Below, in pieces: positions 5,576-28,812 of a DNA stretch of 36,286 nucleotides; positions within the stretch are counted from its first letter, which is position 1; every line of letters begins with the position of its first letter. The stretch comes from an uncultured Clostridia bacterium (lineage in GTDB: Bacteria; Bacillota; Clostridia; Christensenellales; DTU072): assembly GCA_934296355.1 (NCBI GenBank), contig CAKRAY010000006.1, positions 1 through 36,286 on the forward strand, in the 5' to 3' direction. The position numbers and the translations under genes were made by a program. The notes below the pieces were generated by a model. That model was not told the DNA's origin. It was given only the letters and a program-made list of their open reading frames with translations, and ran no database searches.

Positions 5576-7961
5576 ATTCCTCCACGGATCTATCGGAAGC
5601 AAAGAATCCCGCCTTCGCAATGTTGACCATACTCATTCTGCCCCAGCGATATTTGTCGAGGTAAGCGTCGTTGAGTTTTTTTTGCGCGTCGCAGTACGAA
5701 GCGAAGTCGGCTAGGCACATATACGGGTCGGCTTGACCGCCTCTGCCGATAGTGAGCGCGTCGGCTATTTCGGTAAAGTTTACGTCGCCGATGCCGCTCC
5801 TCATCATGTCGATTATCGCCTTGATTCTCTTATCCGTAGCATAGTAGGTCGTCGGATTGTAGCCTTCCTTGTAAAGTCTTGCCACTTCGTCCGCAAGCAT
5901 ACCGAATATGAATATGTTTTCGTCGCCTACTCTCTCGTGGATTTCTACGTTCGCGCCGTCCATCGTACCGATGGTCACCGCGCCGTTTATCATAAACTTC
6001 ATATTGCCGGTGCCGCTGGCTTCCTTACCCGCAATGGATATTTGCTCGCTGACGTCGCTCGCCGGCATTATTATTTCCGCCAAGGATACGCGGTAGTTTT
6101 CTAAGAACACTACTTTGATTTTTCCCTTTATGGTCGGGTCGTTATTTATCACTTCGCTCATTACCCAGATAAGACGGATAATTTGCTTAGCCATATAGTA
6201 ACTGCTCGCCGCCTTCGCGCCGAAAATGAACGTTCTCGGTACGATATCGAGGTCGGGATTGGCTTTTAACCTATTGTAAAGGTCGAGTATGTGCAACGCG
6301 TTAAGTAATTGACGCTTGTACTCGTGCAATCTCTTTACTTGAACGTCGAATATACTGTCGGGGTCGACGGTAATTCCGTTCGCCTTCTTTATGTATTCGG
6401 CAAGGTTAATCTTGTTCGCTCTCTTTATTTCGAACAGTTTGTCTATTGCCTTGTGATTGTTTTGAAGCGCGAGTAACTTTTCGAGTTCGTCCGCGTTCTT
6501 TAACCAGCCGTCGCCTATAGTATCTTTCAAGAACGCCGCAAGAAGCGGATTTGCTTCGCCTACCCAACGACGATGCGTGATACCGTTGGTTACGTTGGTA
6601 AACTTATCGGGCGCAACCTTATAGTAGTCCGCGAACACGCTGTCTATAAGTATATTGCTGTGCAATTGCGAAACGCCGTTTATCGTATGCGACGCCGCCA
6701 GACAAAGATTTGCCATACGAATAATACCGTCGCTCATAATAGCGTTTTGGGATATTTTATCCCATTGATTGGGATACGTTTTCCAAAGTTCCGCGCAAAA
6801 ACGTTGATTGATTTCGCAAACGATTTGATAGATACGGGGTAGCAACGACTTAAAGAGGTCTTGCGGCCAGGTTTCTAACGCCTCTTGCATAACGGTATGG
6901 TTCGTGTAAGAAACGGTGCGGGTAATAATGCTCCACGCGTCGTCCCACGAATAGCCGTAATCGTCGAGAAGAATACGCATGAGTTCGGGTATGCAAAGAG
7001 TCGGGTGCGTATCGTTAATATGAATAGCGACTCTGTCGGGTAAATTGTCCAGACCCGGGTTGTATTTAAGATGCTTCTTAAGAATACTTTGTATGCTCGC
7101 GCTGACGAAGAAGTACTGTTGTTTCAGTCTGAGCGACTTACCCTCGTAGTGGTTGTCCGCAGGATAAAGAACTTTACTTATCGCTTCCGCCATCGCCTTC
7201 GCTTCTATCGCCTTGACGTATTCGCCGCGAGAGAACAACGCCATATCGAATCCCATCGGCGCTCTCGCGCTCCATAATCTTAAAGTGTTTACCGCGTCGC
7301 TGTCGTAACCGGTTACGTTCATGTCGTAAGGCACGGCGAGAACGGTAGTCGCGCCGACGTGTTTTACTTTCAGCTTGCCGGTAGACCAATCTTCTTCGAT
7401 TCTGCCGCCGATTTTTACTTCGAACGTGTCTTCCTCTCTCGGATTAAGCCACACGTCGCCGTTCGTCAACCACTCGTCGGGCATTTCCATTTGCCAGCCG
7501 TCTACTATTCTTTGCTTAAAGATACCGTAGTCGTAACGGATACTGAAACCGCCCGCCGCATAGCCGCAACTCGTCAAACTATCCATATACGCTGCGGCAA
7601 GACGACCTAAGCCGCCGTTACCCAAGCCCGCGTCGGGCTCGATAGCCATAAGGTTCTCTATCTTGAAGCCCATTTCGTTAAGCGCGTTCGTCGCGGTCTT
7701 TAACATACCTATATTATATAGATGATTGCGAAGCGACCGTCCCAACAAGAACTCCATCGACATATAGTAGACTTGTTTCTTGCCCTCTGCTCGTACTTTC
7801 GTCTTGAATTCTACTCTCTTTTGCGTGATAAGGTCCTTTACCACAAAGCACAACGCTCTGTACATGATTTGCTCGCTCGCTTCGGTGTATTTTACGCCGA
7901 ACATCTTTGCCAATTTAAGCTCGATTAACGAGCGAAATTCTTTTTCGCTTACTTTTATCAA
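5541..7961 (-). CDS. glgP: Glycogen/starch/alpha-glucan phosphorylase (GT35)
   Basis: It releases glucose-1-phosphate from alpha-1,4-glucan ends with pyridoxal phosphate as cofactor. The length of 806 aa is normal. Key landmarks are YYMSMEFLLGRSL and GNGGLGRLAAAYMDSL in the N-terminal half, VFLENYRVSLAEIIMPASD, and EASGTGNMKFMINGA, with the PLP-binding Lys at about residue 655. The start is a TTG at 7961 with AGAGGAG eight bases upstream; no nearby in-frame ATG fits the family N-terminus. It lies 14 bases after glgA and overlaps the amylase, so synthesis and breakdown of glycogen share one transcript. Confidence 0.95.
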   Translation of the reverse strand: MIKVSEKEFRSLIELKLAKMFGVKYTEASEQIMYRALCFVVKDLITQKRVEFKTKVRAEGKKQVYYMSMEFLLGRSLRNHLYNIGMLKTATNALNEMGFKIENLMAIEPDAGLGNGGLGRLAAAYMDSLTSCGYAAGGFSIRYDYGIFKQRIVDGWQMEMPDEWLTNGDVWLNPREEDTFEVKIGGRIEEDWSTGKLKVKHVGATTVLAVPYDMNVTGYDSDAVNTLRLWSARAPMGFDMALFSRGEYVKAIEAKAMAEAISKVLYPADNHYEGKSLRLKQQYFFVSASIQSILKKHLKYNPGLDNLPDRVAIHINDTHPTLCIPELMRILLDDYGYSWDDAWSIITRTVSYTNHTVMQEALETWPQDLFKSLLPRIYQIVCEINQRFCAELWKTYPNQWDKISQNAIMSDGIIRMANLCLAASHTINGVSQLHSNILIDSVFADYYKVAPDKFTNVTNGITHRRWVGEANPLLAAFLKDTIGDGWLKNADELEKLLALQNNHKAIDKLFEIKRANKINLAEYIKKANGITVDPDSIFDVQVKRLHEYKRQLLNALHILDLYNRLKANPDLDIVPRTFIFGAKAASSYYMAKQIIRLIWVMSEVINNDPTIKGKIKVVFLENYRVSLAEIIMPASDVSEQISIAGKEASGTGNMKFMINGAVTIGTMDGANVEIHERVGDENIFIFGMLADEVARLYKEGYNPTTYYATDKRIKAIIDMMRSGIGDVNFTEIADALTIGRGGQADPYMCLADFASYCDAQKKLNDAYLDKYRWGRMSMVNIAKAGFFASDRSVEEYAHRIWNLERV

Positions 7962-7975
7962 TGTTAAAACTCCTC

Positions 7976-9406
7976 TTAGTTATTGGTTAATCCTTTGTAA
8001 AGATTCAGGTACTCGGTTGCCGACGTCTTCCAACTATAATTGCCGCTCATCGCGTTTTGCATTACCGCGTTCCATTCCTCTTTATTGTAATAAGTTCCTA
8101 CCGCTCTATGAATAGCGTCAAGCATATCGTATGCGTTATAGGTTTTGAACGTGAATCCTCTACCCGTTTTTTCTACGGGGTTGAAGGGTATAACCGTATC
8201 TTTCAACCCGCCTGTTTCTCTGACGATAGGCACGCTTCCGTAGCGCATCGCTATGAGTTGACTCAAACCGCACGGCTCGAACTTGCTCGGCATAAGGAAC
8301 ATATCGCTGCCCGCGTAAATCTTGCTCGCAATATCGCCCGAAAAGTTGATGACCACGGCGAGTTTGTTCGAGTATCTTCTCGCCATTTCGCAAAGCGCGG
8401 TTTCGTACTTCCAGTCGCCCGTGCCGAGTACGACCATTTGTAAGTCCATACTCAAAATCTCTTCCAAAACTTCCATAACGAGGTCCAAACCCTTTTGATT
8501 GGTAAGTCTGGTTACCATACCGATTAACGGCTTGTCGGGCGCAACGGGTAAATTAACGAGTTGTTGAAGTCCTATTTTGTTCTCCCTCTTGCCGGCGACC
8601 GCTTTCGCCTTGGTGTAGTTCTTGAAAAGCGCGGGGTCGGTAGCGGGGTCGAAAAGTTTCGTGTCTATACCGTTCACGATACCCGAAATCTTATACTGAC
8701 GCTGATTAAGAATATGCTCTAAGCCGTAAGCGTAGTAAGGATTGAGAATCTCTTGCGCGTAGTTATTGCTGACCGTGGTAACTTTGTTGGCGCATTCGAT
8801 ACCCGCTTTAAGCATGTTGGCGCAGTTGTTGTACTCAACCTTGCTCGCTTGACTTTCGGGAATTCCGAAAACTTCGCTTATACAGCACTTGTCCATATTG
8901 CCTTGGAACTCGATGTTGTGTATGGTAAGAACCGTCTTAATACAAGCGTATCCCTCTTGCCCTCTGTAAAAAGAGTCGAGCATAACGGGAATAAGCGCGG
9001 TTTGCCAATCGTTACAATGAATAACGGCGGGGTAGAAGTCGATTAAAGGCAAAACTTCCAAGACCGCTTTCGAGAAAAACGCAAATCTTTCTCCGTCGTC
9101 GTAATGTCCGTAGATATTACGGCGTTTGAAATAATACTCGTTATCGATGAAGTAGTAGGTCACGCCGTTATACTGACATTCGAAAACGCCGGCGTATTGT
9201 TGACGCCAGCCGAGCGATACCGATTTAGAACCGATAAATCTCATCGTCTGACGAAAACTCTCGTTTATTCCTTCGTAAAGAGGCATTATTACTCTTACGT
9301 CTTGTTTCATCTTTGTCAAAGCAAGGGGCAACGCGTAACTTACGTCGCCGAGTCCGCCCGTTCTCATAAAAGGACCCGCTTCGCTGGTTGCAAATAATAT
9401 TTTCAT
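7976..9406 (-). CDS. glgA: Glycogen synthase (GT5, ADP-glucose type)
   Basis: It extends alpha-1,4-glucan chains using ADP-glucose made by the GlgC product. The N-terminal half opens with MKILFATSEAGPFMRTGGL; the C-terminal GT-B half has MVTRLTNQKGLDL and SKFEPCGLSQLIAMRYG with the conserved Glu. In E. coli GlgA, Lys15 of the KTGGL motif contacts ADP-glucose; here residue 15 is Arg (RTGGLGDV). At 476 aa it is full length. The ribosome binding site AGGAG sits eight bases before the ATG. It is separated from glgD by a 284-base gap that is mostly repeat (9454-9670). I could not find a convincing separate promoter, so read-through from glgD or a weak promoter in the repeat are both possible. Confidence 0.95.
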   Translation of the reverse strand: MKILFATSEAGPFMRTGGLGDVSYALPLALTKMKQDVRVIMPLYEGINESFRQTMRFIGSKSVSLGWRQQYAGVFECQYNGVTYYFIDNEYYFKRRNIYGHYDDGERFAFFSKAVLEVLPLIDFYPAVIHCNDWQTALIPVMLDSFYRGQEGYACIKTVLTIHNIEFQGNMDKCCISEVFGIPESQASKVEYNNCANMLKAGIECANKVTTVSNNYAQEILNPYYAYGLEHILNQRQYKISGIVNGIDTKLFDPATDPALFKNYTKAKAVAGKRENKIGLQQLVNLPVAPDKPLIGMVTRLTNQKGLDLVMEVLEEILSMDLQMVVLGTGDWKYETALCEMARRYSNKLAVVINFSGDIASKIYAGSDMFLMPSKFEPCGLSQLIAMRYGSVPIVRETGGLKDTVIPFNPVEKTGRGFTFKTYNAYDMLDAIHRAVGTYYNKEEWNAVMQNAMSGNYSWKTSATEYLNLYKGLTNN

Positions 9407-9453
9407 AGTACCTTCTCCTCTTGTTAGTTTTTTTTGTTTTTTTATGAATAGCG

Positions 9454-9670
9454 CAAGCGCGTTGATTTCTTGCGAAAACCGGGTGGCAACGTGCGTGCGT
9501 TGCGTCCAATTAGACGTAACGACATTCTCCTACGTTTAATTTAATATAGGTAACATACTTTCGCTTCTCGTATGTAATGCCGTACGGTAGTCGAGATTTT
9601 TGCAAGAACCACAAAACATTGCGATGCAACGCGCGGGCGTTGCTTTTTGCGGTGTAAAGCGACGCGCTTG
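9454..9670. repeat. Palindromic MITE-like repeat, copy A (long form)
   Basis: The ends are perfect 9-base inverted repeats, CAAGCGCGT (9454-9462) and ACGCGCTTG (9662-9670). Inside are GATTTCTTGCGAAAACC (9464-9480) and its imperfect inverse GATTTTTGCAAGAACC (9595-9610), plus two GCAACG...CGTTGC hairpins (about 9486-9502 and 9626-9643). Related copies lie at 25051-25120 and 29011-29185. It fills the glgD-glgA gap, which otherwise holds only the glgA ribosome binding site and an A/T-rich leader. Confidence 0.7.
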
Positions 9671-9690
9671 TAACGCTCCGTTTTTGCGTT

Positions 9691-10803
9691 TTATACCGTC
9701 TTACCCTTGACTATCACGATAGGATAGGTGATAAAACCGGAAATATCTCTGTCTTCGCTGATGGTTACGTCCTTGTCCGTAATCGCATACTTCAAGGAAG
9801 AATTTTTACCGATGACGCCGTTTTCCATTACTATGGAATTCTTTACGACCGCGCCTTCTTCTACCTTAACGTTACGGAAAAGTATGGAATTCTCTACCGT
9901 GCCTTTGATTACGCAGCCGTCGGCGACGAGCGAGTTGGTCACTTGCGCGCCCTTCTTGTAAACGGTGGGAACGCTGTCTTTTACTTTGGTGTAAATCGTG
10001 CTGTGTCCGCCGAAAAGTTCTTCTCTTACGTCTTGTTTAAGCAAATTCATGCTCTCGCCGTAATAAGTTTTTACGTCGTCCACTATCGCCGCGTAAGATT
10101 CGATTTTGTAGGCGTTTACGCTCCTTTCTTCCACGAGTTTGAACAAAATGTCTTTTTCAAAGTCGACTTGTCCTCTCGCGTACGCTTTCTTGACGAGTTC
10201 GAGAAGCAAGTTCTTCTCGATAACGTAGGAATTGAGCGATATTTCTTTTTCTTCGTTGCCCGCGATTTCCGTTTCGTAAATGTCGGTAACCACGTTTTCT
10301 TCGTTTCTTTCGATAACGATACGACGGGAAGTGGTGGTGTAACCGTTATGGCAAAGCATGGTTATCTTCGCGCCGCTCTTCACGTGCTTTTCGAAAACGT
10401 CATCGTAGTCTATGTTCGCCGCAACGTTGCAGTTGGCGATGACTACGTAGTCTTCTTTCGCTCTCTCGAAATAACTCATTATCGAATAAATCGCTTCGAT
10501 TTTTCCCTTATATACTTCCGCGGAATTGTTGTACGCGAACGGCGGGAAGATGCTTATACCCGAGTTCTTTCTGTTCAAGTCCCAATCTCTGCCTTGACGA
10601 ATATGGTCCATAAGAGATTGATACTTACTGCTCGTAACAATTCCTATCTTAGTGATTCCGCTGTTGACAAGGTTACTTAAAGTAAAGTCGATAAGACGGT
10701 ATCTGCCGCCGAACGGCAAGGACGCCGTCGTTCTGTGTAAGGTAAGTTCGTTAAGTTTGCTTTCGTTTCCCGACGCAAACAAAATGCTCATCATATCGTT
10801 CAT
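9691..10803 (-). CDS. glgD: Glucose-1-phosphate adenylyltransferase regulatory subunit GlgD
   Basis: A GlgC paralogue that in Bacillota pairs with GlgC to form a more active ADP-glucose pyrophosphorylase. It keeps the Rossmann-like start of the family ([21 protein letters not shown]) and a C-terminal left-handed beta-helix with hexapeptide repeats ([19 protein letters not shown]). The catalytic GGxGTRL loop is replaced by [12 protein letters not shown], so it is unlikely to be catalytic alone. The start overlaps the glgC stop (ATGA), with a strong AAAGGAGG upstream inside glgC. At 370 aa it has the usual GlgD length. Confidence 0.93.
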
Positions 10804-12008
10804 TGTTTGTTACCTCCTTTCGTCATTTCGCCTTCTTTGATTACCGTGTTCTTCGCTAAAACGAGTTCCGGTCCGACGACCGCTATCTTCCATTCTCCGT
10901 CTTCCGGTCCGTCTTGCGGCGCGCCTATAACGCAGTTATTGCCCACGACGGTATCCCAGCCCACAATGGCGTGACTGATGCGCACGTTTTCTCCGATAAT
11001 GGCGTTGGGCATAATTATCGAGTCTCTTACTTCCGCGCCCTTGGAGATTTTCGCGCCGTAGTATATTACCGAGTTAGTGACTCTTCCGTCCACGTAGCAA
11101 CCCTCGCTGACGATACTGTCCGCAATTTCCGCTTCGTTGCCGATATATTGCGGCGGATTGGCGTTGTTTCTCGCGTAAATACGCCAGTTCTTGTCGTTGA
11201 TTACCAAACCGCTTTGCGGATTGAGCAAGTCCATGTTCGCTTCCCATAAAGAACTGATGGTTCCTACGTCTTTCCAGTATCCCTTGAACTGATAAGCGAA
11301 AAGTCTTTGCTTGTCGGCGAGCATCAAGGGGATAATGTTCTTTCCGAAGTCGTTACTGCTGTTCTTGTCCTCTTCGTCGCGGATAAGGTAACTTCTCAGT
11401 TTACTCCAAGTGAAGATATAGATGCCCATACTCGCTTTGGTGCTTTTCGGTCTCTTGGGTTTTTCTTCGAACTCGTAAACGCTGCCGTCCTCTCTGGTGT
11501 TCATGATGCCGAATCTGCTCGCTTCTTCTATGCTTACGTCAAGTACGGCAATCGTGCAGTCCGCATTGTTCTTTTTATGCTCTTCGAGCATTTCGGAGTA
11601 GTCCATTTTGTAGATATGGTCGCCGGAAAGAATAAGAACGTAATCGGGGTCGTATCTGTCGATGAAGTTTATGTTTTGATAAATGGCGTTAGCCGTACCC
11701 TTATACCATTCGCCCGACTTGCCTCTTTGATACGGAGGAAGAACGAACGCGCCGCCGTTCAACCTGTCTAAGTCCCACGGCTGACCGTTGCCGATATACT
11801 GATTCAGTTCGAACGGTTGATACTGGGTGAGAACGCCTATCGTGTCTATTCCCGAATTGATGGTGTTGGAAATAGGAAAATCGATGATACGATACTTCCC
11901 TCCGAACGGCACTGCCGGCTTCGCTACGTTTTGCGTAAGAACGCCGAGTCGCGTTCCTTGTCCGCCCGCCAGCAACATTGCAACACATTCTTTTTTCGTA
12001 CTTTGCAT
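10800..12008 (-). CDS. glgC: Glucose-1-phosphate adenylyltransferase catalytic subunit
   Basis: It makes ADP-glucose from glucose-1-phosphate and ATP, the committed step of bacterial glycogen synthesis. The nucleotide loop [20 protein letters not shown] is intact, followed by [15 protein letters not shown], the metal-site region [19 protein letters not shown], and SMGIYIF. The C-terminal beta-helix has SDGCYVDGR-like hexapeptides. Length 402 aa is normal. The ATG has AAGGAG seven bases upstream and follows glgB by 31 bases. It is translationally coupled to glgD. Confidence 0.96.
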
Positions 12009-12039
12009 AATATTCTCCTTTTATTGAATTTCTACTTTT

Positions 12040-13980
12040 TTATTCTACGTTGTCGTTTTCTTCGTCTACGATCTCCTCTTCGTCATCGTCCACGAACTCT
12101 TCTTTTAACTTAACGAACAGCGAACCGTTTGCCGGTAAATCGAGTACGAGTGATTGCTTCTTGCCGTGGTTCGGTTCGTTCACCGTAATCAAATCGCCTC
12201 TCTCCAAATGCGTTCCGCCGTATTTTTCCCACTCGGAACACAACGCTTCGTAATACACGCCCTTTTTGTCCACGCCTATTTCGTACCCATCGCGCTCCAC
12301 GTTCGAGAAGTTAAGCGCGACGATGACGAACTCGCCCTCTCTGTCGTAACGCGTAAACACGAGTACGTTTTGCTCGTTGTCGTCCACGACTATCCACTTA
12401 AATCCGTCGTAAGAACAGTCTAACTCGTATAAACTCTTGTTGGCGAGGTAGAACTTGTTCAAATCGCGTATGTATTCTCTGAACTTAAAGTGCTTTTCGT
12501 AATCGAGCAACATCCAATCGAGTTGTTTTTTATAATCCCATTCGATAAACTGCGCGAACTCCGAACCCATAAAATTGAGTTTCTTGCCGGGGTGCGCCAT
12601 CTGATAAGAAAGCAAGGTTTTCACGCCCGAAAACTTTTCGCCGTATTCTCCGGAAATCTTGCCCATCAAACTGCCTTTTCCGTGTACGACCTCGTCGTGT
12701 GAAAGCGGCAAAATATAGTTCTCGCTGAACGCGTAGGTTATCGAGAACGTGAGTTTGTTATGACAACCTTTACGGAAAATTCCGTCGGTTTTTATATAAG
12801 AAAGGGTGTCGTTCATCCAACCCATATTCCACTTATAGTTAAAGCCGAGTCCTCCGAACGACGGCGGCATGGTAACCATCGGGAACGCCGTGCTTTCTTC
12901 GGCGATCATTATTACGCCCGGATGACGGGAAAGTATGGTCTTATTGAGCGTTTGTAAGAAGTAAACCGCCTCTAAGTTATACTCGCCGCCGAACTCGTTG
13001 GGTCTCCATTCGCCCTCGCGCCTGTCGTAGTTAAGATAAAGCATACTCGCTACCGCGTCGAGACGCATTCCGTCGATATGGTAGTTCGTTATCCAAAAGT
13101 TTACCGCGCTGATTAAGAAACATCTCACTTGCGGCTTGTTGAAATCGTAAACCCTCGTACCCCAGCCTTTATGCTCTTGCTTATACGCGTCGTCGTACTC
13201 GTAAAGGCAAGTTCCGTCGAATTCGTACAAGCCAAACTCGTCTTTCGGGAAGTGGCTAAGCACGAAGTCCATAATAACGCCTATCCCCGCTTGGTGGCAA
13301 GCGTCCACGAACGCCATAAAGTCGTGCGGCGTGCCGTATCTCGAACTCGGCGCGAAAAGCCCCGTGGTCTGATATCCCCAACTCCCTTCGTACGGGAACT
13401 CGGTAATCGGCAAAAGTTCTATATGCGTGTAACCCATTTCCTTGACGTAAGGCACGAGTTCTCTGGCAAAATCGAGATACGAGTATCTGTTGCCGTCCGC
13501 GTGAAGCCGCCAACTTCCGAAGTGTACTTCGTAAATGTTCATCGGACTTTCGTAAGTATTCTTTCTTCTCGACGTGTTAAGGTACTCACCGTCGTGCCAG
13601 TTATACCCGGCGATGTCGTAAATCTTGGAACCGTTCGCCGGCATGGTTTCGGTATGCGTGGCGTAAGGGTCGGACTTCATTACCTTACTGCCGTCGGCGC
13701 GTTCTATACAAAACTTATAAGTCGAAAATCTTCTCAATCCGCGAACGTAGCATTCCCAAACTCCGGTCGAACCCATACGTTGCATCGGGGTGGCGGAATC
13801 GTTCCAACCGTTAAAATCGCCAACCAAACTAACGCTCTTGGCGTTAGGCGCCCAAACTCTCAGTCGCCATAACTTTTTTCCGTCCTTTTGCACGTAGCAA
13901 GGGCAAAAAAACTTGTACGATTCGAAGTTCGTTCCTTCGTTAAACAAATAAATGGGGTAGTCGTAAACGTTTTTTGGCAT
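12040..13980 (-). CDS. glgB: 1,4-alpha-glucan branching enzyme (GH13)
   Basis: It cuts alpha-1,4 chains and rejoins them as alpha-1,6 branches of glycogen. An N-terminal carbohydrate-binding domain (CBM48; WAPNAKSVSLVGDFNGWN) precedes the GH13 barrel: GVIMDFVLSHFPKDEFGL (I), GMRLDAVASMLYL with the nucleophile (II), MIAEESTAFP with the acid Glu (III), LPLSHDEVVHGKGSL (IV). A beta domain follows, and the tail is a short acidic run (DDDEEEIVDEEND). Length 646 aa is normal. The ATG lies 11 bases after the ispE stop with GAGGAGAG between, so it is probably cotranscribed from the ispE promoter. Confidence 0.96.
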   Translation of the reverse strand: MPKNVYDYPIYLFNEGTNFESYKFFCPCYVQKDGKKLWRLRVWAPNAKSVSLVGDFNGWNDSATPMQRMGSTGVWECYVRGLRRFSTYKFCIERADGSKVMKSDPYATHTETMPANGSKIYDIAGYNWHDGEYLNTSRRKNTYESPMNIYEVHFGSWRLHADGNRYSYLDFARELVPYVKEMGYTHIELLPITEFPYEGSWGYQTTGLFAPSSRYGTPHDFMAFVDACHQAGIGVIMDFVLSHFPKDEFGLYEFDGTCLYEYDDAYKQEHKGWGTRVYDFNKPQVRCFLISAVNFWITNYHIDGMRLDAVASMLYLNYDRREGEWRPNEFGGEYNLEAVYFLQTLNKTILSRHPGVIMIAEESTAFPMVTMPPSFGGLGFNYKWNMGWMNDTLSYIKTDGIFRKGCHNKLTFSITYAFSENYILPLSHDEVVHGKGSLMGKISGEYGEKFSGVKTLLSYQMAHPGKKLNFMGSEFAQFIEWDYKKQLDWMLLDYEKHFKFREYIRDLNKFYLANKSLYELDCSYDGFKWIVVDDNEQNVLVFTRYDREGEFVIVALNFSNVERDGYEIGVDKKGVYYEALCSEWEKYGGTHLERGDLITVNEPNHGKKQSLVLDLPANGSLFVKLKEEFVDDDEEEIVDEENDNVE

Positions 13981-20365: not shown

Positions 20366-23262
20366 TAGAAAAACTCTTTTCCCATCCCGTACACTCGGCG
20401 CGCTTGTTAAAAATGAAAGAAAAAATTTACGAAGAAGTCGCGCCCTTACAAGTCGACTACTTCCCCTCTTCCGAGCCGATAAAAAAGTCGGAACTTAACC
20501 TAAGCGACTTCAAGCCGTTCAAGAAAGGCGAAGTCTGGACGAAAGAAAAATTCGGCTGTTGCTGGTTCCGCTTCCGCGGCGCGGTTCCCGAATCGGCAAA
20601 AGGTAAAAAAATCGTCGCCGTGATAAAACTTCTCGGCGAAGGCGAAATCTACGATGGCGGCGAGCCTAAGCAAGGTTTATCCCCGATACTCTCCACCATC
20701 GACGCGGGCGCGTCGAGAATGGGAAAACAAATTTATCCGGTTTCTCTTTGCGCGGAAGGCAACGAAACCGTGGACTTCCTCGTAGACTGCGGACACAACG
20801 GCTACTGCGGCGCGTTTTTCTATAACCCCAGACTTATGACGTGCGCCCTCGCCGCCGTTAACCAAGATTTATACGACTATTACTACGATTATTTATGTCT
20901 CGTCCTCGCGTTATGCACCGAGGGCAAGAACGCCTACCTTACCGAAGAAAGGGTTTCCGAAATAGATAAAACGTTAACCCAAAGTTACTCTTTCGCGAAA
21001 GGCGGCAACTACCGCGAAGCAAGGAGGATTTTAAGTAAGATTCTCTCGGAGAAACAAGAAACGGGCGTTAATTACACCCTGATCGGACACGGACATCTCG
21101 ACCTTGCGTGGCGTTGGCCGATAAGAGAGGGACGGAGAAAAGCGATAAGAACGTTCTCCAACGTTTTAGCATATTTAGACCGTTACGACAAGTTCGTTTT
21201 CGGCGCGAGCCAAGCGCAAATGTTCGCTTGGGTAAAGGAAGACGAACCCGCGCTTTACGAAAAAATAAAGCAAGCGGTCAAGGCGGGACGGATAGAAGTT
21301 CAAGGCGCGATGTGGACGGAAAACGACTGTAACCTCGCCGGCGGAGAAAGTCTGATACGCCAGTTCTTGTACGGCGAAAGATTTTTCCGGGAAGAAATGG
21401 GCGTAAGCAGCGACGTTACTTGGCTTCCCGACGTTTTCGGGTTCCCTTGCACTTATCCGCAAATCGTCAAAGGCGTAGGCAAAAAGTACTTCGCCACGAT
21501 AAAACTTTACCGAAACGAATACAACGAATTTCCCTATCAAACGTTTAACTGGATAGGTCCGGACGGCTCGTCGGTTATCGCGCATTTTCCGCCCGAAAGG
21601 TCGTACTGCGCTTCGGCAAGCCCGATATCTATCGTGAAAGCGGACGTTAACAACAAGCAAAAAGAAGTAGGAAACGCGCTCGTTATCTACGGAGTAAGCG
21701 ACGGAGGCGGCGGACCCGGCGAAGGACACCTCGAAATGCTTGCCCGTTCGGGTTTTGCCGGCACGCCCAAAACCACGGTCGCCTCGGCGGAAAGTTTTTT
21801 CCGTACCTTGGACGGCGTGAAACTCCCCGATTATCAAGGCGAATTGTACTTGGAAAAACACCAAGGCACATACACCGCGCAAGCCAAAAACAAGTACTAC
21901 AACCGTTTGGCGGAAAGAAAACTGCATACGCTCGAATGGCTCGAATGCGCGACGAACTATCGCGTGGAAAACCGCGACGAATTGTGGAAAACCGTACTTA
22001 CGCAACAATTCCACGACATATTGCCGGGGTCGAGTATCGGCAGAGTTCATAAAGAAAGCGTGGAAGCCTACGTAAAAGTTTGCACCGTTATAGACAAAGA
22101 AATCGCTAAACGCGTAGATATGCTTAGCGCGGGCGAAGGACTTTCTTACGTCAATCCCGCGCCTTTTCCCGCAATCAAAACGCTCGAACTTCGCGGCAAG
22201 TTCTATAAAGCGAACTGCCCCGCTTACTCGGCGGTCGAATTAGTTCCCGTAGACGCGCCGGATTATCTGCGCGCGGGCGTCGATTTTATAGAAAACGACC
22301 TTTTAAGAGTGGAATTTAACGTTAAAAACGGACAAATATCGAAAGTTATAGATAAAAAGAGCGAAAAAGTTCTCTCGCGTGGCGCGTTCCATAAATTAGT
22401 GGTTCATCGCGACAAGAAAACCCGTTACGACGCGTGGGATATCTCCAAAGATTATCTCCTCTCGGCGGTTCCGTTAAGAAAAGTCAACGTAAAAACGGGC
22501 ATAGAGGGCTTAAAAGCGTTCGCGCGGTTCGAATATACAGGCGAAAGCGACGATATTATGGTGATAAGCGAAGTTTACGTCGGCGAAGAAAAGACGATTT
22601 ACTTCGCCACGCAAGTTAATTGGACGCCCTCGCATAAAATGCTCCGCGCCGAGTTCAGACCGACAAACTTTACCGACGAGGCGAACTGCGACGTACAATT
22701 CGGCAGTATAAACCGTTCTACCCGCAACGATACGGAAGTGGAAAAGGCGCAATACGAGGTTTGCGCGCACAAATACTGCGCCGTCGGCGACGAAGAAAAC
22801 GGCTTTACCGCCGTTCTCAGCGATTGTAAGTTCGGTTACCGCGTAAAAGACGGCGTTATCAGCCTTAACCTCTTGCGCTCGCCCGATTTTCCCGACCCCG
22901 ATTGCGACCGCGGCGAACATTTATTCACTTACGCCGTTACTTTTAGCGACTCGTTGTCCGAAGTGGTAAAAAGCGGCTATTTATACGACCTAACCGGGTT
23001 CGTCGTAGAGAAAAAAGTCGTCGTGCCGAAACTCTTCTCCGTAAACGACGAAAACGTCGTCGTGGAAACGATTAAACCCGCGGAAAACGGCTCGGGCGCC
23101 GCGATAAGAGTTTACGAACGGTTCGGCAAAAATGTGGAAACCGATTATTCCTCTTTCGCGCCGTTACGCTACGAAACCGACCTCTTAGAACGCCCTCTTA
23201 CCTCCGACGGTCTCGACAAAATACGCCTTAAACCGCACGAAATAAAAACTTACCTTATTTGA
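20362..23262 (+). CDS. Alpha-mannosidase (GH38)
   Basis: A retaining zinc-dependent exo-alpha-mannosidase of 966 aa. The GH38 metal site GHGHLDLAW (His245, Asp247), GAMWTENDCNLAGGESLIRQ, and WLPDVFGFP with the nucleophile (Asp357) are intact; DGGGGPGEGHLE follows near 450 and C-terminal beta-sandwich domains fill the rest. No signal peptide, so it probably works on imported mannosides in the cytosol. It starts with GTG overlapping the pfkB stop, with AAGGAG eleven bases upstream. No transporter is next to it. No clear terminator follows; 23263-23333 holds only a short tandem ATCGCGAA motif. Confidence 0.93.
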   Translation: MIEKLFSHPVHSARLLKMKEKIYEEVAPLQVDYFPSSEPIKKSELNLSDFKPFKKGEVWTKEKFGCCWFRFRGAVPESAKGKKIVAVIKLLGEGEIYDGGEPKQGLSPILSTIDAGASRMGKQIYPVSLCAEGNETVDFLVDCGHNGYCGAFFYNPRLMTCALAAVNQDLYDYYYDYLCLVLALCTEGKNAYLTEERVSEIDKTLTQSYSFAKGGNYREARRILSKILSEKQETGVNYTLIGHGHLDLAWRWPIREGRRKAIRTFSNVLAYLDRYDKFVFGASQAQMFAWVKEDEPALYEKIKQAVKAGRIEVQGAMWTENDCNLAGGESLIRQFLYGERFFREEMGVSSDVTWLPDVFGFPCTYPQIVKGVGKKYFATIKLYRNEYNEFPYQTFNWIGPDGSSVIAHFPPERSYCASASPISIVKADVNNKQKEVGNALVIYGVSDGGGGPGEGHLEMLARSGFAGTPKTTVASAESFFRTLDGVKLPDYQGELYLEKHQGTYTAQAKNKYYNRLAERKLHTLEWLECATNYRVENRDELWKTVLTQQFHDILPGSSIGRVHKESVEAYVKVCTVIDKEIAKRVDMLSAGEGLSYVNPAPFPAIKTLELRGKFYKANCPAYSAVELVPVDAPDYLRAGVDFIENDLLRVEFNVKNGQISKVIDKKSEKVLSRGAFHKLVVHRDKKTRYDAWDISKDYLLSAVPLRKVNVKTGIEGLKAFARFEYTGESDDIMVISEVYVGEEKTIYFATQVNWTPSHKMLRAEFRPTNFTDEANCDVQFGSINRSTRNDTEVEKAQYEVCAHKYCAVGDEENGFTAVLSDCKFGYRVKDGVISLNLLRSPDFPDPDCDRGEHLFTYAVTFSDSLSEVVKSGYLYDLTGFVVEKKVVVPKLFSVNDENVVVETIKPAENGSGAAIRVYERFGKNVETDYSSFAPLRYETDLLERPLTSDGLDKIRLKPHEIKTYLI

Positions 23263-23333
23263 TCGCGAATCATCGCGAATAAGCCGTGTATTTTAGCAAA
23301 GCGCATGAGACACTCCAGGTTTATTAAAACAAA

Positions 23334-23363
23334 TTGACGAAAAGCGTTACGGTATGTTATTAT
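23334..23363 (+). promoter_or_regulatory. Promoter of the XRE-ClpP unit
   Basis: TTGACG (23334-23339), an 18-base spacer and TATTAT (23358-23363). It leaves a leader of about 35-40 bases ending in AAGGGG, five bases before the ATG. Confidence 0.6.
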
Positions 23364-23408
23364 TGTTTTTGCGGTAAAAACAAACCGATAATTTATTAAG
23401 GGGATAAT

Positions 23409-23813
23409 ATGAAACTGATAGAAAGAGTAAGCATAGATTGGAATAAAACGGGTAGACTGCTACGCTTGTTACGTTGCGCTAACGAAAATTTACGCCGCAA
23501 CGTTTGTAAGACGCGTAAAGTAATGCATTCCGCGTGTAAAAACGCCGACCCGCTTTGCGGTAAGAACTGTCAAAGTAATTGCAGTCGCGACTGCGACTTA
23601 GACTGTAATCTCGACTGCGAAAACTGCGGCGTGGAGATGGACAACGCCATCAGTCAAGCGGAACTTGCCGAAGTTTTATGCGTTTCGGCAACGCAAGTCG
23701 CTAACTGGGAACTTGGCAGAACGCCCCCGCCTATAGAAGATTTGCTTATGTACGGCAAGCTTTGCGGACTCAACATTTTCGATATTCTCATTTTCGATAA
23801 TAAAGCCAACTAA
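23409..23813 (+). CDS. XRE-type HTH regulator with cysteine-rich insert
   Basis: A 134-aa DNA-binding protein. The C-terminal part is a normal XRE/Cro helix-turn-helix (SQAELAEVLCVSATQVANWE, then PIEDLLMYGKLCGLNIFDIL). Helix 1 (TGRLLRLLRC) is split from it by an insert of about 50 residues containing Cys33, 43, 50, 54, 58, 62, 66, 70 and 73; six successive CxxxC steps are followed by CxxC. Twelve Cys occur in total (also 23, 91, 119). I infer metal, Fe-S or thiol sensing; no known regulator family with this insert is recognised. It sits 10 bases before the ClpP-like pair, each gene with an AAGGAGG-class site, so it likely controls that operon. The insert's codons contain near-repeats of GACTGCGA, suggesting growth by duplication. 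Confidence 0.8.
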   Translation: MKLIERVSIDWNKTGRLLRLLRCANENLRRNVCKTRKVMHSACKNADPLCGKNCQSNCSRDCDLDCNLDCENCGVEMDNAISQAELAEVLCVSATQVANWELGRTPPPIEDLLMYGKLCGLNIFDILIFDNKAN

Positions 23814-23823
23814 GGAGGACCTT

Positions 23824-24366
23824 ATGCAAACACAAAGAGAACTCGCGCTAAAACTACGCGACAGTCGCATAATCATTGTCGGCGGCACGATAGCGTCTTC
23901 GAACGCGTCCGGATTAATCTTCGACTTGCTCACGCTCGACGCGGACGACGATACCAAGCCCATTCAACTTTATATATTTTCGAGTTACGGCGCATACCTC
24001 GACGTAATGGCGGTGTACGACACCATAAAACGTATTCACGCCCCCGTAAGAGGCATTTGTATCGGAAGTTTAACCAATTATTCCGCGCTTCTACTCGCTT
24101 CTTGCAACAAGGGCGAACGTTTCGCGCTCAAACACAGCACGATAAGTTTATCTCAACCCTACACCGGCTTGCAAGCGGGCGGAAATCAACAAACCGAGAT
24201 CCTCATCGCCGCTAAAGAAGCGAGGCTCGAACGCGAAGTTTTTGAAAAAGCGCTCGCCGCGGAAACGGGAACGAGTTTGGAAAAAATTCACGCCGACTGC
24301 GAAAACGGCATCGAACTTAACGCGAAACAAGCGATTAATTACGGCATCGTAGACAAAGTTTTATAA
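23824..24366 (+). CDS. ClpP-like pseudoprotease (catalytic triad lost)
   Basis: A 180-aa ClpP-fold protein (S14 family). It aligns along its whole length with the next gene, sharing DTKPIQLYI, AVYDTIKRI, and the end INYGIVDKVL. All three catalytic positions are changed: Ser to Asn85 (ICIGSLTNYSA against VCFGMAASFGA), His to Ser110 (TISLSQP against ILIHQP), and Asp to Gly162 (CENG against CERD). The SPGGS substrate/oxyanion loop is SSYGA. It should not cleave peptides, but ring-contact regions look kept. By analogy with ClpR of cyanobacteria and plastids it may form mixed rings with the active ClpP encoded 14 bases downstream. Strong AAGGAGG lies seven bases upstream. No Clp ATPase is nearby. 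Confidence 0.82.
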   Translation: MQTQRELALKLRDSRIIIVGGTIASSNASGLIFDLLTLDADDDTKPIQLYIFSSYGAYLDVMAVYDTIKRIHAPVRGICIGSLTNYSALLLASCNKGERFALKHSTISLSQPYTGLQAGGNQQTEILIAAKEARLEREVFEKALAAETGTSLEKIHADCENGIELNAKQAINYGIVDKVL

Positions 24367-24380
24367 GGAGGTAAGAGATT

Positions 24381-24896
24381 ATGCAAGACCCGAGAATCAT
24401 AATTTTAGACACGCAAGTGGACGCAAACAGCGCGATGGACGTCATAATCCGCTTACTCGACTTCGACGCCGAAGACAACACTAAAGAGATACAATTATAC
24501 ATCAACTCCCCCGGCGGCAGCATTAACGACGGTTTGGCGATTTACGACACGATAAAACTTATCTCCGCGCCCGTAAGCACGGTTTGTTTCGGTATGGCGG
24601 CTTCGTTCGGCGCGTTCTTACTCACTTGCGGAGAGAAAGGCAAACGCTACGCGCTCCCGCATAGCAGAATACTCATTCATCAACCGCTTATTCAATCGAG
24701 CGGCAGAAGCGGCATGACGCAATCGGAAATGCAAAAAGTCGCGGACAGTATTACCGAGAGCCGTGACGAACTCGAACGCATAATGGCGGAAAACATCGGT
24801 AAATCTATCGAAGAAATTCACGCCGCTTGCGAACGCGATAACTGGATGAGCGCGGAAGAAGCGTTGGCTTTCGGAATTATAGATAAAATACTTTAA
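24381..24896 (+). CDS. clpP: ATP-dependent Clp protease proteolytic subunit, short form
   Basis: A 171-aa serine peptidase (S14). The triad is intact: Ser75 in GMAASFGAFLL, His100 in RILIHQPL, Asp153 in CERDNWMSAEEA; the SPGGS loop is present at 43-47. The protein starts MQDPRIIIL, about 20-30 residues later than usual ClpP, so the propeptide and much of the axial-loop region that gates the pore are missing. AAGGAGG nine bases upstream confirms this start; no earlier start fits. Coupled to the pseudo-ClpP upstream, it is the likely catalytic half of a mixed protease. It may be a second ClpP beside a housekeeping copy elsewhere, which cannot be seen here. Confidence 0.87.
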   Translation: MQDPRIIILDTQVDANSAMDVIIRLLDFDAEDNTKEIQLYINSPGGSINDGLAIYDTIKLISAPVSTVCFGMAASFGAFLLTCGEKGKRYALPHSRILIHQPLIQSSGRSGMTQSEMQKVADSITESRDELERIMAENIGKSIEEIHAACERDNWMSAEEALAFGIIDKIL

Positions 24897-24973
24897 TAAC
24901 GTTGCTTTACGCTTAAAAGTCTTCGAAAAAAGCGTTTTTTCGGTTCGTTCGTAACGAAAAATATCAAAAAAAT

Positions 24974-25010
24974 AAGGATACAAGTATTTTTACTTATATC
25001 CTTTTTCTTT
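24974..25010. terminator. Terminator between clpP and the transketolase genes
   Basis: The stem AAGGATA/TATCCTT plus AAGTA/TACTT with one mismatch closes a TTTT loop. A T-rich tail follows on plus (25003-25010), and an A run before it gives a T tail on minus, so it can serve both convergent operons. Confidence 0.8.
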
Positions 25011-25050
25011 ATATAACAGTTTTTTTGCTTCTTCACCGGAAGCGACCAAG

Positions 25051-25120
25051 GCGCGTTGATTTCTTGTGAAAACCGAGCGGCAATATGTTAGCGGTGCTTT
25101 TACGGTGTAAAGCGACGCGC
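25051..25120. repeat. Palindromic MITE-like repeat, copy B (short form)
   Basis: Starts GCGCGTTGATTTCTTG, then GAAAACCGAGCGGC, and ends GGTGTAAAGCGACGCGC, matching both ends of copy A (9454-9670) with most of the interior missing. It ends nine bases before the stop of the transketolase C-terminal gene. Confidence 0.65.
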
Positions 25121-25128
25121 ACGGGACG

Positions 25129-26073
25129 CTACTTTTTCATGGAGATGACTTTTTTAATCGCATTTACCGCGTCGGCGGTTTCCATATTGAAAACTTTCCT
25201 TAAATACGGCATTTTGCCCACTTCGCCGAACTTTTCTTTTACGCCGACCGATTGCACGGGTACGGGATAGTTCTCGCAAATCGTTTCGCACACCGCGCTT
25301 CTCAGCGCGCCGCAAACGTTGTGGTTTTCTAAGGTAACCGCCGCGCCCGTTTTCTTCACGGAAGCGATTATCGTTTCTTCGTCTATAGGTTTTACCGTAT
25401 GGCAAACCACGACTTCCGCGTCGATACCCTCTTTAAGCAGTTCTTCTCTCGCTTCGAGAGCCGTGCTTACCATTATACCGCTCGCGATTACCGTTACGTC
25501 CTTACCCTCTCTTATTACGTCCGCTTTTCTTAACGCAAGTCTGTCCGTATCGGCTTCGGAATAGCAAATAGGGGGATTTTTTCTATTAAGTCTGACGTAG
25601 GTCACACCCTCGAATTTCATTATTTCGGGAAGAACTTTTTTCAGTTCCACGATATCGGTGGGTTCGTAAATGGTTACGTTCGGGATAGAGCGGAGCATAC
25701 CTATATCTTCGAAAGGCATGTGCGTACCGCCGTTAAGTTCCGCGCAAATACCGGGGTCGGTGCCGACGATAACGACGTTTTGCTTGGCGTAAGCAAGACT
25801 TATCATAATTTGGTCGGCGATTCTTCTGGTCGCGAACGGCGCGAACGTGGTTATAATCGGCTTGAAGCCGTAAGCGGAAAGTCCCGCCGCGATACCCGCC
25901 ATATTCGCTTCCGCGATACCTACGTCGAAAGTTCTGTCGGGGAAGTCCGCCCATAACTTGTTATCGCCTATGCACTTGGCAAGGTCCGCGTCGAGAAGTA
26001 CGACTTTCTCGTCCGCCGTCATGAGCTCTTTAACGTAATCGGTAAAAACTTCTTTCATTAACTTATCTGCCAT
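25129..26073 (-). CDS. Transketolase, C-terminal subunit
   Basis: The pyrimidine-binding and C-terminal domains of a split transketolase (pentose phosphate pathway; thiamine diphosphate dependent). Landmarks are FDVGIAEANMAGIAAGLSAYG with the conserved Glu, TFAPFATRRIADQI, GGTHMPFEDIGMLRSIPN, and a late VTLENHNVCGALRSAV. Length 314 aa is usual for this half. It starts two bases after the N-terminal subunit's stop, giving equal expression of both halves. The related split 1-deoxyxylulose-5-phosphate synthase-like proteins are less likely given the partner's sequence. Confidence 0.92.
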   Translation of the reverse strand: MADKLMKEVFTDYVKELMTADEKVVLLDADLAKCIGDNKLWADFPDRTFDVGIAEANMAGIAAGLSAYGFKPIITTFAPFATRRIADQIMISLAYAKQNVVIVGTDPGICAELNGGTHMPFEDIGMLRSIPNVTIYEPTDIVELKKVLPEIMKFEGVTYVRLNRKNPPICYSEADTDRLALRKADVIREGKDVTVIASGIMVSTALEAREELLKEGIDAEVVVCHTVKPIDEETIIASVKKTGAAVTLENHNVCGALRSAVCETICENYPVPVQSVGVKEKFGEVGKMPYLRKVFNMETADAVNAIKKVISMKK

Positions 26074-27007: not shown

Positions 27008-27347
27008 CGGCGCCAAACGTTCGGCGGGTACTTATAGCAGTCGGAAAGGTTTTTCCTTTGTGCTAATGCGTACTGTTAACCGCCGAAGCACCGACTTATA
27101 AGGAAGCCGTTAAGATAACGGTACCAGTCGCAAGGGGGCATTACATTACAGTCAAAAGAGGTCGTTATTGCGACCTCTTTCTTTGTGTAATTCCATTTGT
27201 TTCCCCCTTGGTACCGACTAATAAGGAAGCCGTTACGTACCTTACGGCTTACATTCAAGTTCGCAAGCCTTTCCCTCTTGCTCGATTTCCCTAAGGGGAA
27301 AATACAAAAAGCGTCGTTTTCGTATTTTCGTATTATACCGTAAACCT
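27008..27347. repeat. Composite repeat block (modules Z, P and Q)
   Basis: Module Z (27008-27083) begins CGGCGCCAAACGTTCGGCGG and includes GCGTACTGTTAACCGC; module Q (27216-27347) includes the hairpins AAGCCGT/ACGGCTT and TTTCCCTAAGGGGAAA; module P (27120-27215) is inserted between. The same modules recur in reverse at 16270-16455 and 16541-16560, and in a different order (P, part of Q, Z) at 36043-36286. Minus-strand open frames across P and Q at 27 kb and 36 kb look alike only because the DNA is repeated. Confidence 0.75.
27120..27215. repeat. Module P, 96-bp palindromic insert bounded by GGTACC
   Basis: Both ends are GGTACC, followed inward by CAAGGGGG (27131-27138) and CCCCCTTG (27203-27210), and at the centre AAAGAGGTCG/CGACCTCTTT. 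The whole unit can fold as one long hairpin and could end transcription. The near-duplicate flanks GACTTATAAGGAAGCCGTTA (27093-27112) and GACTAATAAGGAAGCCGTTA (27216-27235) suggest insertion with duplication. A second copy is at 36043-36137. Confidence 0.7.
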
Positions 27348-27771: not shown

Positions 27772-28812
27772 TTAAGCAAGTTTTATCCACAAAGCGGGAA
27801 GAACGCCGTAACAATTATAGTCGACGTAACTAGTGCTGATTTTATCGCCATCGGAAAAAACGAGCCGTCCATAAATACTATCGGTATTGCCGGGCGAACG
27901 AATCCACCACCAACACGCTCTGCCGTAACTACTGCTTGCTTGTATGCCTTGACTCTTAGCGTAATCGCTACTCTTCATTTGTCTTTCGCTATTGCTCGTT
28001 AAGTAAGTGGTTACATCCATGTAACTAAGTAAGAATACATTGTCGTTTGTATTTTCACAAGCAAATTGGTTACTGCTATATCCCGCGCTGCTTGCGCTGT
28101 TATCTACGTTCGTAATCTCTATTAAATCCTTTTGTAACGAAGTAAAGGCGGTGTTGTAGAAAGTGTCGTTAAGCCACTTTCTAATATCGCTTTCCGCATA
28201 GTTATTGGGATATACGGTATTACCTTCAACCGTACGGTTTGACGTACTATGATAATACTGTTGACTGTCTATCGCTAAGTCCGCTATAACTAACGCTTTT
28301 CCGTCGCTTTCTTTTAGTATTCTCCACTTGATAGGTTCGTACTTAAACCAATATACCGTGGAAATGTAGTATCCGTTGTCGTTTTGATAAGTGTAATCAG
28401 TAGAATTACTTTTGGCGCAGTACCAAGGTCTATAACTCGTAAAGTACACGCCTCTGTATTTTACGCCGTTGTATTCTTTGTCAATATACCACATATAGTT
28501 TTTAACGCTTTTCTCCATATAATAGCCGTAGGAAGTCCACGCTTGATTGTTGTCTTCGGTAGGCAAAGTCCCCGCTAAATTAGTAAGAGCGGAAGTAAGA
28601 GTTTCGTCCGTTACTTTGCTTTGCGGATAAGAGCCGAATAAGATATAATTGCCGTTACCGTCCTCGCTGCTATCTTCGTTCACGCGAGTATAAATCGTTT
28701 TGCTCGCGTCATCGGGTTCGTCCGAACCGTCTTTCGAACAAGCAACTAACATTGCGTTACATGTAATTATTACAATAAGCAATACTAAAAAAGCCAAAAA
28801 TCTCTTCCTCAT
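27772..28812 (-). CDS. DUF6273 domain lipoprotein
   Basis: An exported lipoprotein of 346 aa; function unknown. The signal peptide has a basic start (MRKR), a hydrophobic core and a lipobox ending LVAC at Cys25, followed by a charged linker (SKDGSDEPDD). The remainder carries the DUF6273 pattern: ILFGSYPQSKV, PIKWRIL, SDIRKWLNDTFYNTAFT, ACWWWIRSPG, and the end GVLPALWIKL. It is rich in Tyr, Ser, Asn and Thr, and its DNA is more A/T-rich than its neighbours. GGAGG precedes the ATG by ten bases. It is bounded by repeat-rich DNA on both sides, consistent with a variable, possibly acquired surface gene. Confidence 0.82.
   Translation of the reverse strand: MRKRFLAFLVLLIVIITCNAMLVACSKDGSDEPDDASKTIYTRVNEDSSEDGNGNYILFGSYPQSKVTDETLTSALTNLAGTLPTEDNNQAWTSYGYYMEKSVKNYMWYIDKEYNGVKYRGVYFTSYRPWYCAKSNSTDYTYQNDNGYYISTVYWFKYEPIKWRILKESDGKALVIADLAIDSQQYYHSTSNRTVEGNTVYPNNYAESDIRKWLNDTFYNTAFTSLQKDLIEITNVDNSASSAGYSSNQFACENTNDNVFLLSYMDVTTYLTSNSERQMKSSDYAKSQGIQASSSYGRACWWWIRSPGNTDSIYGRLVFSDGDKISTSYVDYNCYGVLPALWIKLA

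Follow-up and report, generated by a model that had tools for sequence, protein, structure and literature searches.

A conserved gene pair for a catalytically dead and a short active ClpP homologue in Clostridia

Why would a Clostridia bacterium encode, side by side, a ClpP homologue that has lost its catalytic residues and a short one that has kept them, behind a gene for a cysteine-rich DNA-binding protein? The stretch of DNA analysed here (the window; 36,286 nt from an uncultured Clostridia bacterium) had been read in an earlier note as carrying a new three-gene unit, in which one promoter drives a mixed Clp protease together with its own regulator. The locus has the following features.

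23334..23363, + strand: promoter-like sequence TTGACG-18 nt-TATTAT with TG ahead of the second hexamer (motif scan)
23363..23383, + strand: 8-nt inverted repeat without mismatch, TTGTTTTT-5-AAAAACAA, where the -10 region ends
23409..23813, + strand: gene for an XRE-type HTH protein, 134 aa (ORF, Pfam)
23824..24366, + strand: gene for a catalytically dead ClpP homologue, 180 aa (ORF, Pfam, triad alignment)
24366..24371, + strand: AGGAGG ribosome binding site for the active subunit; it overlaps the stop of the dead gene
24381..24896, + strand: gene for a short active ClpP, 171 aa, with Ser-His-Asp intact (ORF, Pfam, alignment)
24974..25003, no strand assigned: 13-pair hairpin in the gap before the convergent downstream genes

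The earlier identification of all three proteins was confirmed. The dead protein matches Pfam CLP_protease at 9.3e-38 (130.3 bits; cut-off 20.2) and, when aligned to B. subtilis ClpP (3tt6), carries N, S and G in place of Ser97, His122 and Asp171; the active protein matches the same family at 4.1e-60 (203.2 bits; same cut-off), with S, H and D at these positions. Both score below the 308.6-bit cut-off of TIGR00493, the equivalog model for canonical ClpP (127.2 and 194.2 bits for the dead and active protein, respectively). With 108 bits, the dead protein is also below the 263-bit cut-off of NF009204, which we take to be the model for the ClpR-like group; as a ClpP homologue without a catalytic triad, it fits the definition of a ClpR. 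Its predicted structure (pLDDT 90, pTM 0.84) is best matched by S. aureus ClpP 5vz2 (TM 0.92, 36% identity) and is least certain in the handle loop (pLDDT 56 for block 111-120 and 67 for block 121-130). The N-terminus of the dead protein retains 14 residues, with one helix in the model (H4-13), and the active protein has four residues ahead of the arginine that opens the first strand. A longer N-terminus is excluded by an in-frame stop at 24372-24374, and the active subunit therefore lacks both the axial loop and helix A. S-H-D is present in all 16 distinct rows with a 24-residue handle span and an N-terminus of 4-6 residues.

The active protein also matches phrog_94 at 7e-38. An assignment as a phage head maturation protease was considered and rejected; no link to phage structural genes was seen, and the neighbours look metabolic by translation (an alpha-mannosidase-like gene upstream and two convergent transketolase-like halves downstream). 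Models of defence systems and Rfam models at gathering scores gave no match.

The dead/active ClpP pair is a real, conserved unit. A single-sequence search with the dead protein returned 14 proteins, the dead relatives among them being P0001-P0009, and one non-exhaustive, pattern-based scan of a collection of 84,980 species returned seven loci, namely one ordinary Alteromonas ClpP and six loci in Clostridia metagenome-assembled genomes (MAGs; three from roe deer cecum, one from goat rumen, one from sheep rectum and one without a host given). In all six MAG loci, the dead gene directly precedes the short active clpP. Searches of relatives added one complete locus (L054, in G162) and one partial locus (L057, in G160), in which a contig end cuts the dead gene and leaves its C-terminal part and the active gene. 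The dead-then-active order thus holds in all eight complete loci (the window, the six MAG loci and L054), with gaps of 14, 14, 12, 12, 8, 3, 11 and 1 nt, and three more metagenome pairs (P0003/P0010, P0005/P0097 and P0021/P0081) are suggested solely by contigs of equal length. Two members, P0016 and P0018, are annotated as ATP-dependent Clp protease subunits and lack the residues for proteolysis.

The regulator behaves differently. A dedicated unit of three genes, one of them for a Cys-rich metal or redox regulator of its own, would be consistent with the tight spacing and shared promoter-like site in the window (10 nt between the XRE and dead genes, 14 nt between the dead and active genes), with the palindrome at this promoter and with the conservation of C33, C70 and C73, which fits metal binding, in all eight aligned XRE relatives; at least one more Cys lies between them, as judged by eye. 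However, no XRE gene was found next to any of the seven other complete pairs within the DNA available (835 nt upstream in the case of L054). XRE homologues with a shorter insert do occur in G005 and G160, but on contigs other than that of the pair, and also in five further genomes among the 121 around G005, none of which gave a dead-gene match in the search with this centre and size. G002 has a weak XRE match (E 0.002) about 6 kb from the pair. We therefore consider the dedicated unit very improbable; its version as a conserved three-gene unit is largely refuted by what lies next to the pair at each locus found and by the XRE searches. When the three genes were looked for together in other genomes, as had been suggested, the regulator was found away from the pair but the two clpP genes remained neighbours, so that the pair stands and its regulator does not. 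The XRE protein is not a fixed part of the dead/active unit.

As the earlier note had stated, the XRE protein is an HTH protein with a Cys-rich insert (Pfam HTH_3 at 2e-07, 31.4 bits, cut-off 23; HTH_31 also matched). The insert sits between HTH helices 1 and 2, and nine of the 12 Cys of the protein fall within residues 33-73. The aligned relatives share a small insert that resembles a metal site, and CxxxC repeats enlarge it in the window. A single-sequence protein search returned one relative (P0015, 96%). Among the loci seen, the Cys-rich XRE proteins form a small family of their own that is joined to the pair in the window only, and other loci with such a Cys insert have varied neighbours (L093, L094, L095, L096, L097, L061 and L062). 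We read the XRE protein as a local addition, one that may control the operon copy of the window. PopR and ClgR of Streptomyces are presumably also of the XRE type, and we know of no Cys insert in either of them. The Streptomyces clpP3clpP4-PopR and ClgR systems resemble the window in that a clpP pair is described there as controlled by a dedicated transcription factor that is in turn a substrate of Clp (PMC9765437, PMC12607617). They differ in that PopR and ClgR are activators.

How is the pair expressed? The raw promoter scan of positions 23200-25130 found two sites against a shuffle mean of 2.6, which is not above chance; when the 220 nt upstream were shuffled 300 times under a first-order Markov model, the score of the site at 23334-23363 was reached once. 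A promoter-like site thus stands where a promoter had been proposed, and promoter-like sites of equal score lie ahead of six of the seven other complete pairs (L001, L003-L006 and L054), the scores of the seven sites each being reached in 0-9 of 300 Markov shuffles. Before the dead gene, five of these pairs (L001, L003, L005, L006 and L054) have a TTGAC-type first hexamer that is separated by 18 nt from a TG-extended second one, and L004 has TTGAGT with a 17-nt spacer; in L002, no site of equal score was found before the dead gene. Sites of this kind are of the housekeeping sigma type, and their TTGAC and TG-extended elements before the pairs would favour ordinary sigma-dependent expression over a stress regulon. 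CtsR-like sites were at chance level (four matches with three mismatches each, against 3.6 expected) and none was near the pair. The stress or metal control that had been proposed is therefore unsupported. The tight spacing that had been noted holds, and strong ribosome binding sites, which had been ascribed to all three genes, are found as AGGAGG-type sites before the dead and the active gene. The XRE protein may have its operator in the inverted repeat at 23363-23383, a weak candidate because a repeat of equal length arises in 290 of 5000 Markov shuffles. For the hairpin at 24974-25003, a terminator-like call was obtained on the - strand only, and a T-rich tail is visible by eye on the + strand.

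To characterize the dead family, a profile of 14 dead members was run against a protein collection, in which at least 7995 candidates were scored and 6141 reached E 1e-30; the best 120 of these 6141 were listed. Taking these and the earlier matches together, 67 of 124 ClpP-like proteins are dead, a class that we defined by at least two triad changes, and the remaining 57 comprise 44 with S-H-D and 13 changed at Asp alone (Asn-type). Among the matches listed, His is lost in all 67 dead proteins and all three triad residues are lost in 51 of them. Conservation was evaluated on 73 dead (65 listed proteins and eight loci), 16 active and 61 ordinary rows, which include some near-copies; left out were 22 of the 124 proteins (P0001, the fragment P0079, P0011-P0014, P0066, P0074, P0090 and the 13 Asn-type proteins). 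The loss of the triad could suggest a decaying ClpP duplicate without function, but the reading frame is open and Q131, T133, R146, E150 and H165 are identical in 73 of 73 dead rows. This conservation refutes decay, to which we assign next to no probability.

Three of the five invariant residues, R146, E150 and H165, are also present in all 16 active rows. Ordinary ClpPs have R146 in 24, E150 in five and H165 in five of 61 rows, and all three together in only four, so that R146 alone is not exclusive to the pair. The handle span is 23 residues in 16 of 16 dead rows, 24 in 10 of 10 active rows and 20-22 in 10 canonical rows; a span of 23 is not exclusive to the pair either, being found among the matches listed in seven of the 13 Asn-type ClpPs. 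Mean column entropies (in bits) for the catalytic region, the handle loop and overall are 1.95, 1.09 and 1.59 in dead rows, 0.21, 1.58 and 0.74 in active rows, and 0.58, 0.80 and 0.97 in ordinary rows, respectively. The handle loop is thus better conserved than average in ordinary ClpPs also, and worse than average in active rows. At the docking-cleft positions, a list that we take to stem from work on E. coli ClpP, dead and active rows alike have lost the aromatic residue at position 49; that at position 82 is lost in dead rows, with a Tyr remaining in three of 10 active rows. An aromatic residue persists at position 62, as Tyr or Phe in all 16 dead rows and as Tyr in all 10 active rows, and L114 is retained in all dead and active rows. 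This pattern would be consistent with rings that are preserved and chaperone docking that is altered.

The two subunits also group in phylogenetic trees. In a tree of 59 rows, the 16 dead (support 100/100) and 10 active proteins (98/92) each form a clade, and the two together are separated from 33 canonical or other ClpPs with 100/96. In a tree of 83 rows, support for the dead (23 rows) and active (14 rows) clades is 100/100 and 100/96, respectively, and that for the split of both from the other 46 rows is weaker (91/76), reaching 96/99 with P0090 placed beside the pair. The trees are not rooted by the data, and the sister relationship of dead and active clades assumes a root among ordinary ClpPs. 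The dead clade sits on a long branch, and each of its 23 rows has at least two triad residues changed. Eleven of the 13 Asn-type ClpPs are in the tree and fall among ordinary ClpPs, outside the dead and active clades. P0090 itself, a short ClpP from a metagenome (181 aa), has an intact triad, the NQQT handle motif and R146/E150/H165, and it is perhaps a single-gene relic of the ancestor of the pair before its duplication. Distances of dead and active proteins across eight pairs correlate with r 0.78, reached in four of 5000 permutations. This correlation is unspecific because canonical ClpP correlates as well in six genomes (0.87 with dead, 0.93 with active), as expected from shared descent.

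The pair stands beside a housekeeping Clp system. Each of six pair-bearing genomes (G001-G006) has three ClpP matches, namely a full-length canonical, a short active and a dead one. Trigger-factor-like and ClpX-like genes flank the full-length clpP in L009, L010 and L012, where they were read directly, and a ClpX-sized ClpB_D2-small match lies within about 1.5 kb of this gene in five of the six genomes. All eight pair-bearing genomes carry ATPase matches and, judged by length, most of them probably have ClpX and one or two of ClpC/ClpB. No ATPase gene was found beside the pair at the loci examined; in G004, the full-length clpP and a ClpX-sized gene are on the contig of the pair, 4-6 kb away.

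A canonical ClpP in all six genomes would also suit a dead subunit that acts as a pseudoenzyme inhibitor or modulator by inserting into housekeeping ClpP, with the short active protein as a separate peptidase; a precedent is Streptomyces ClpP_ADEP, for which ClpP homologues are described as combining into mixed, unproductive dimers and trimers (PMC12607617). Yet the adjacency in all eight complete loci and the shared R146/E150/H165 indicate the short active subunit as the partner of the dead one, and we regard insertion into the housekeeping enzyme as unlikely. The subunits might instead form separate homo-oligomers, with a new, non-proteolytic role for the dead one. The dead family is varied at the catalytic face, and Plasmodium ClpP and ClpR are described as homoheptamers that form no stable joint 14-mer in vitro (PMC7966870). 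This is countered by the strict pairing with gaps of 1-14 nt in all eight complete loci, and separate particles seem to us quite unlikely.

The reading that we favour, and hold to be reasonably probable, is that the gene pair at 23824-24896 encodes an accessory hetero-oligomeric Clp core of two unlike subunits. The best reading of the dead subunit is a structural or allosteric one, in what would be a ClpR-like arrangement of separate origin in non-photosynthetic Clostridia. An accessory ClpP would have duplicated in tandem, as the trees support with an assumed root; one copy would have lost its catalytic residues once and then remained dead, and the other would have retained the residues for catalysis and lost the N-terminal axial loop and helix A. 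Both subunits may then form one hetero-oligomeric 14-mer, either with one all-dead ring on top of one all-active ring, as in Listeria ClpP1/ClpP2, or with rings that mix both subunits, as in cyanobacterial ClpP3/R. The dead subunit would have a structural part, make contacts between the rings and perhaps present the face to which an AAA+ partner binds, and the active subunit would cut. With no canonical axial loop in either subunit and with aromatic residues missing from the docking cleft, the core probably differs from the ClpXP of the same cell in how it is gated or fed, for example in being fed by ClpC or in acting as an open peptidase. A linked two-subunit model of dead and active protein, made from a shallow alignment, reached pLDDT 40 and pTM 0.30.

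Several known systems resemble this arrangement. Cyanobacterial ClpP3/ClpR, plastid ClpPR and apicoplast ClpP/ClpR likewise combine active and triad-less ClpP paralogues (PMC4673316, PMC7966870); rings of four ClpR and three ClpP3 are described for Synechococcus, and mixed rings of the cyanobacterial type were called unique so far to photosynthetic organisms in 2015 (PMC4673316). ClpR is described from cyanobacteria, plastids and apicoplasts (PMC7966870). In contrast, the pair studied here occurs in Clostridia MAGs alongside a canonical ClpP, both of its subunits lack the axial loop, and the active one also lacks helix A. Listeria ClpP1/ClpP2 is alike in that it comes from Bacillota and has two ClpPs, one of them impaired. 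Listeria ClpP1 is described as having Asn172, as lacking the N-terminal chaperone-binding motif and as forming mostly inactive heptamers that become active only with ClpP2 (PMC5361862). Its only triad change is that of Asp172 to Asn, and it is active in the complex, whereas none of the 67 dead proteins among the matches listed keeps His, so that they are not of this type. Mycobacterial and Streptomyces ClpP1P2 also have two unlike ClpP subunits, with chaperones described as using one face only (PMC4416901, PMC9765437); the docking face is that of ClpP2, and the docking elements are an N-terminal loop and a hydrophobic patch (PMC4416901). The clpP genes are described as paired in Streptomyces (PMC9765437) and as a single operon in mycobacteria (PMC3280978). 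Both Streptomyces subunits have canonical triads (PMC9765437), whereas one subunit of the window pair is dead.

The pair most likely works like ClpP/ClpR or Listeria ClpP1/P2, and it is at most a candidate member of either. We found no report of a triad-less ClpP in Clostridia among the matches listed from titles and abstract openings of the open literature, a sample mostly without subscription journals and no proof of absence. We offer only tentatively, as a possibility that we would not yet bet on, that the pair is a second independent mixed peptidase of the ClpP/ClpR type outside photosynthetic lineages, accessory beside ClpXP; with neither axial gate left, its chamber would be open or fed in another way, and the dead subunit would set the output. 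As a small bacterial two-gene model, the pair bears on why Clp machines keep catalytically dead subunits. If mixed particles form, this question could be tested with two proteins, compared with the nine-subunit plant plastid core, and ClpR-like subunits would have arisen more than once.

The pair is patchily distributed. With a match above 200 bits to the dead profiles as the threshold, the dead gene is present in one of 61 genomes around G002, three of 121 around G003, three of 121 around G005 (the same three around G004), one of 391 class-wide genomes and three of 317 genomes drawn from an order; these sets overlap, and G160 is left out because its dead gene is cut. At this cut-off, it is absent from all 60 relatives of G002 and all 390 other class genomes. 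The corresponding search for the short active subunit returned 278 of the 391 genomes because ordinary ClpPs pass the cut-off; the copy of G003 itself is the only one well above the rest (331 bits; next 230). The weaker hits retained as loci (L027-L105) contain 75 ClpP reading frames; the dead ones among these come only from pair loci already named, and the ClpPs of L100-L105 are ordinary. One match was viral, an ordinary ClpP with a long N-terminus. Because distances within the pair track those of canonical ClpP in six genomes, differential loss fits the patchiness at least as well as horizontal spread does.

Some pair loci have further features in their surroundings. In L002 (G002), the pair is flanked by direct repeats of about 280 nt that are 93% alike (about 7767-8045 and 11196-11475) and are parts of paralogous genes for Cys-rich lipoprotein-like proteins; because it lies between direct repeats, this pair may have moved or could be recombined away. 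A divergent gene of 301-302 aa lies upstream of the pair in L001 (1911-2819), L003 (8822-9730) and L006 (2896-3801), on the - strand, and no Pfam match was found for the copies of L001 and L003. Judged by eye, the pair in these loci is followed by a small ORF for a hydrophobic product.

Elsewhere in the window, translations point to a glycogen/starch gene cluster at 3812-13980 (amylase-like, phosphorylase, synthase, two ADP-glucose pyrophosphorylase-like and branching enzyme genes). Two 23-nt direct repeats (27090-27112 and 27213-27235; 96% alike, 123 nt apart) sit where long ORFs are absent, and positions 27772-28812 on the - strand encode a lipoprotein-like protein with a DUF6273 domain (1.4e-24).
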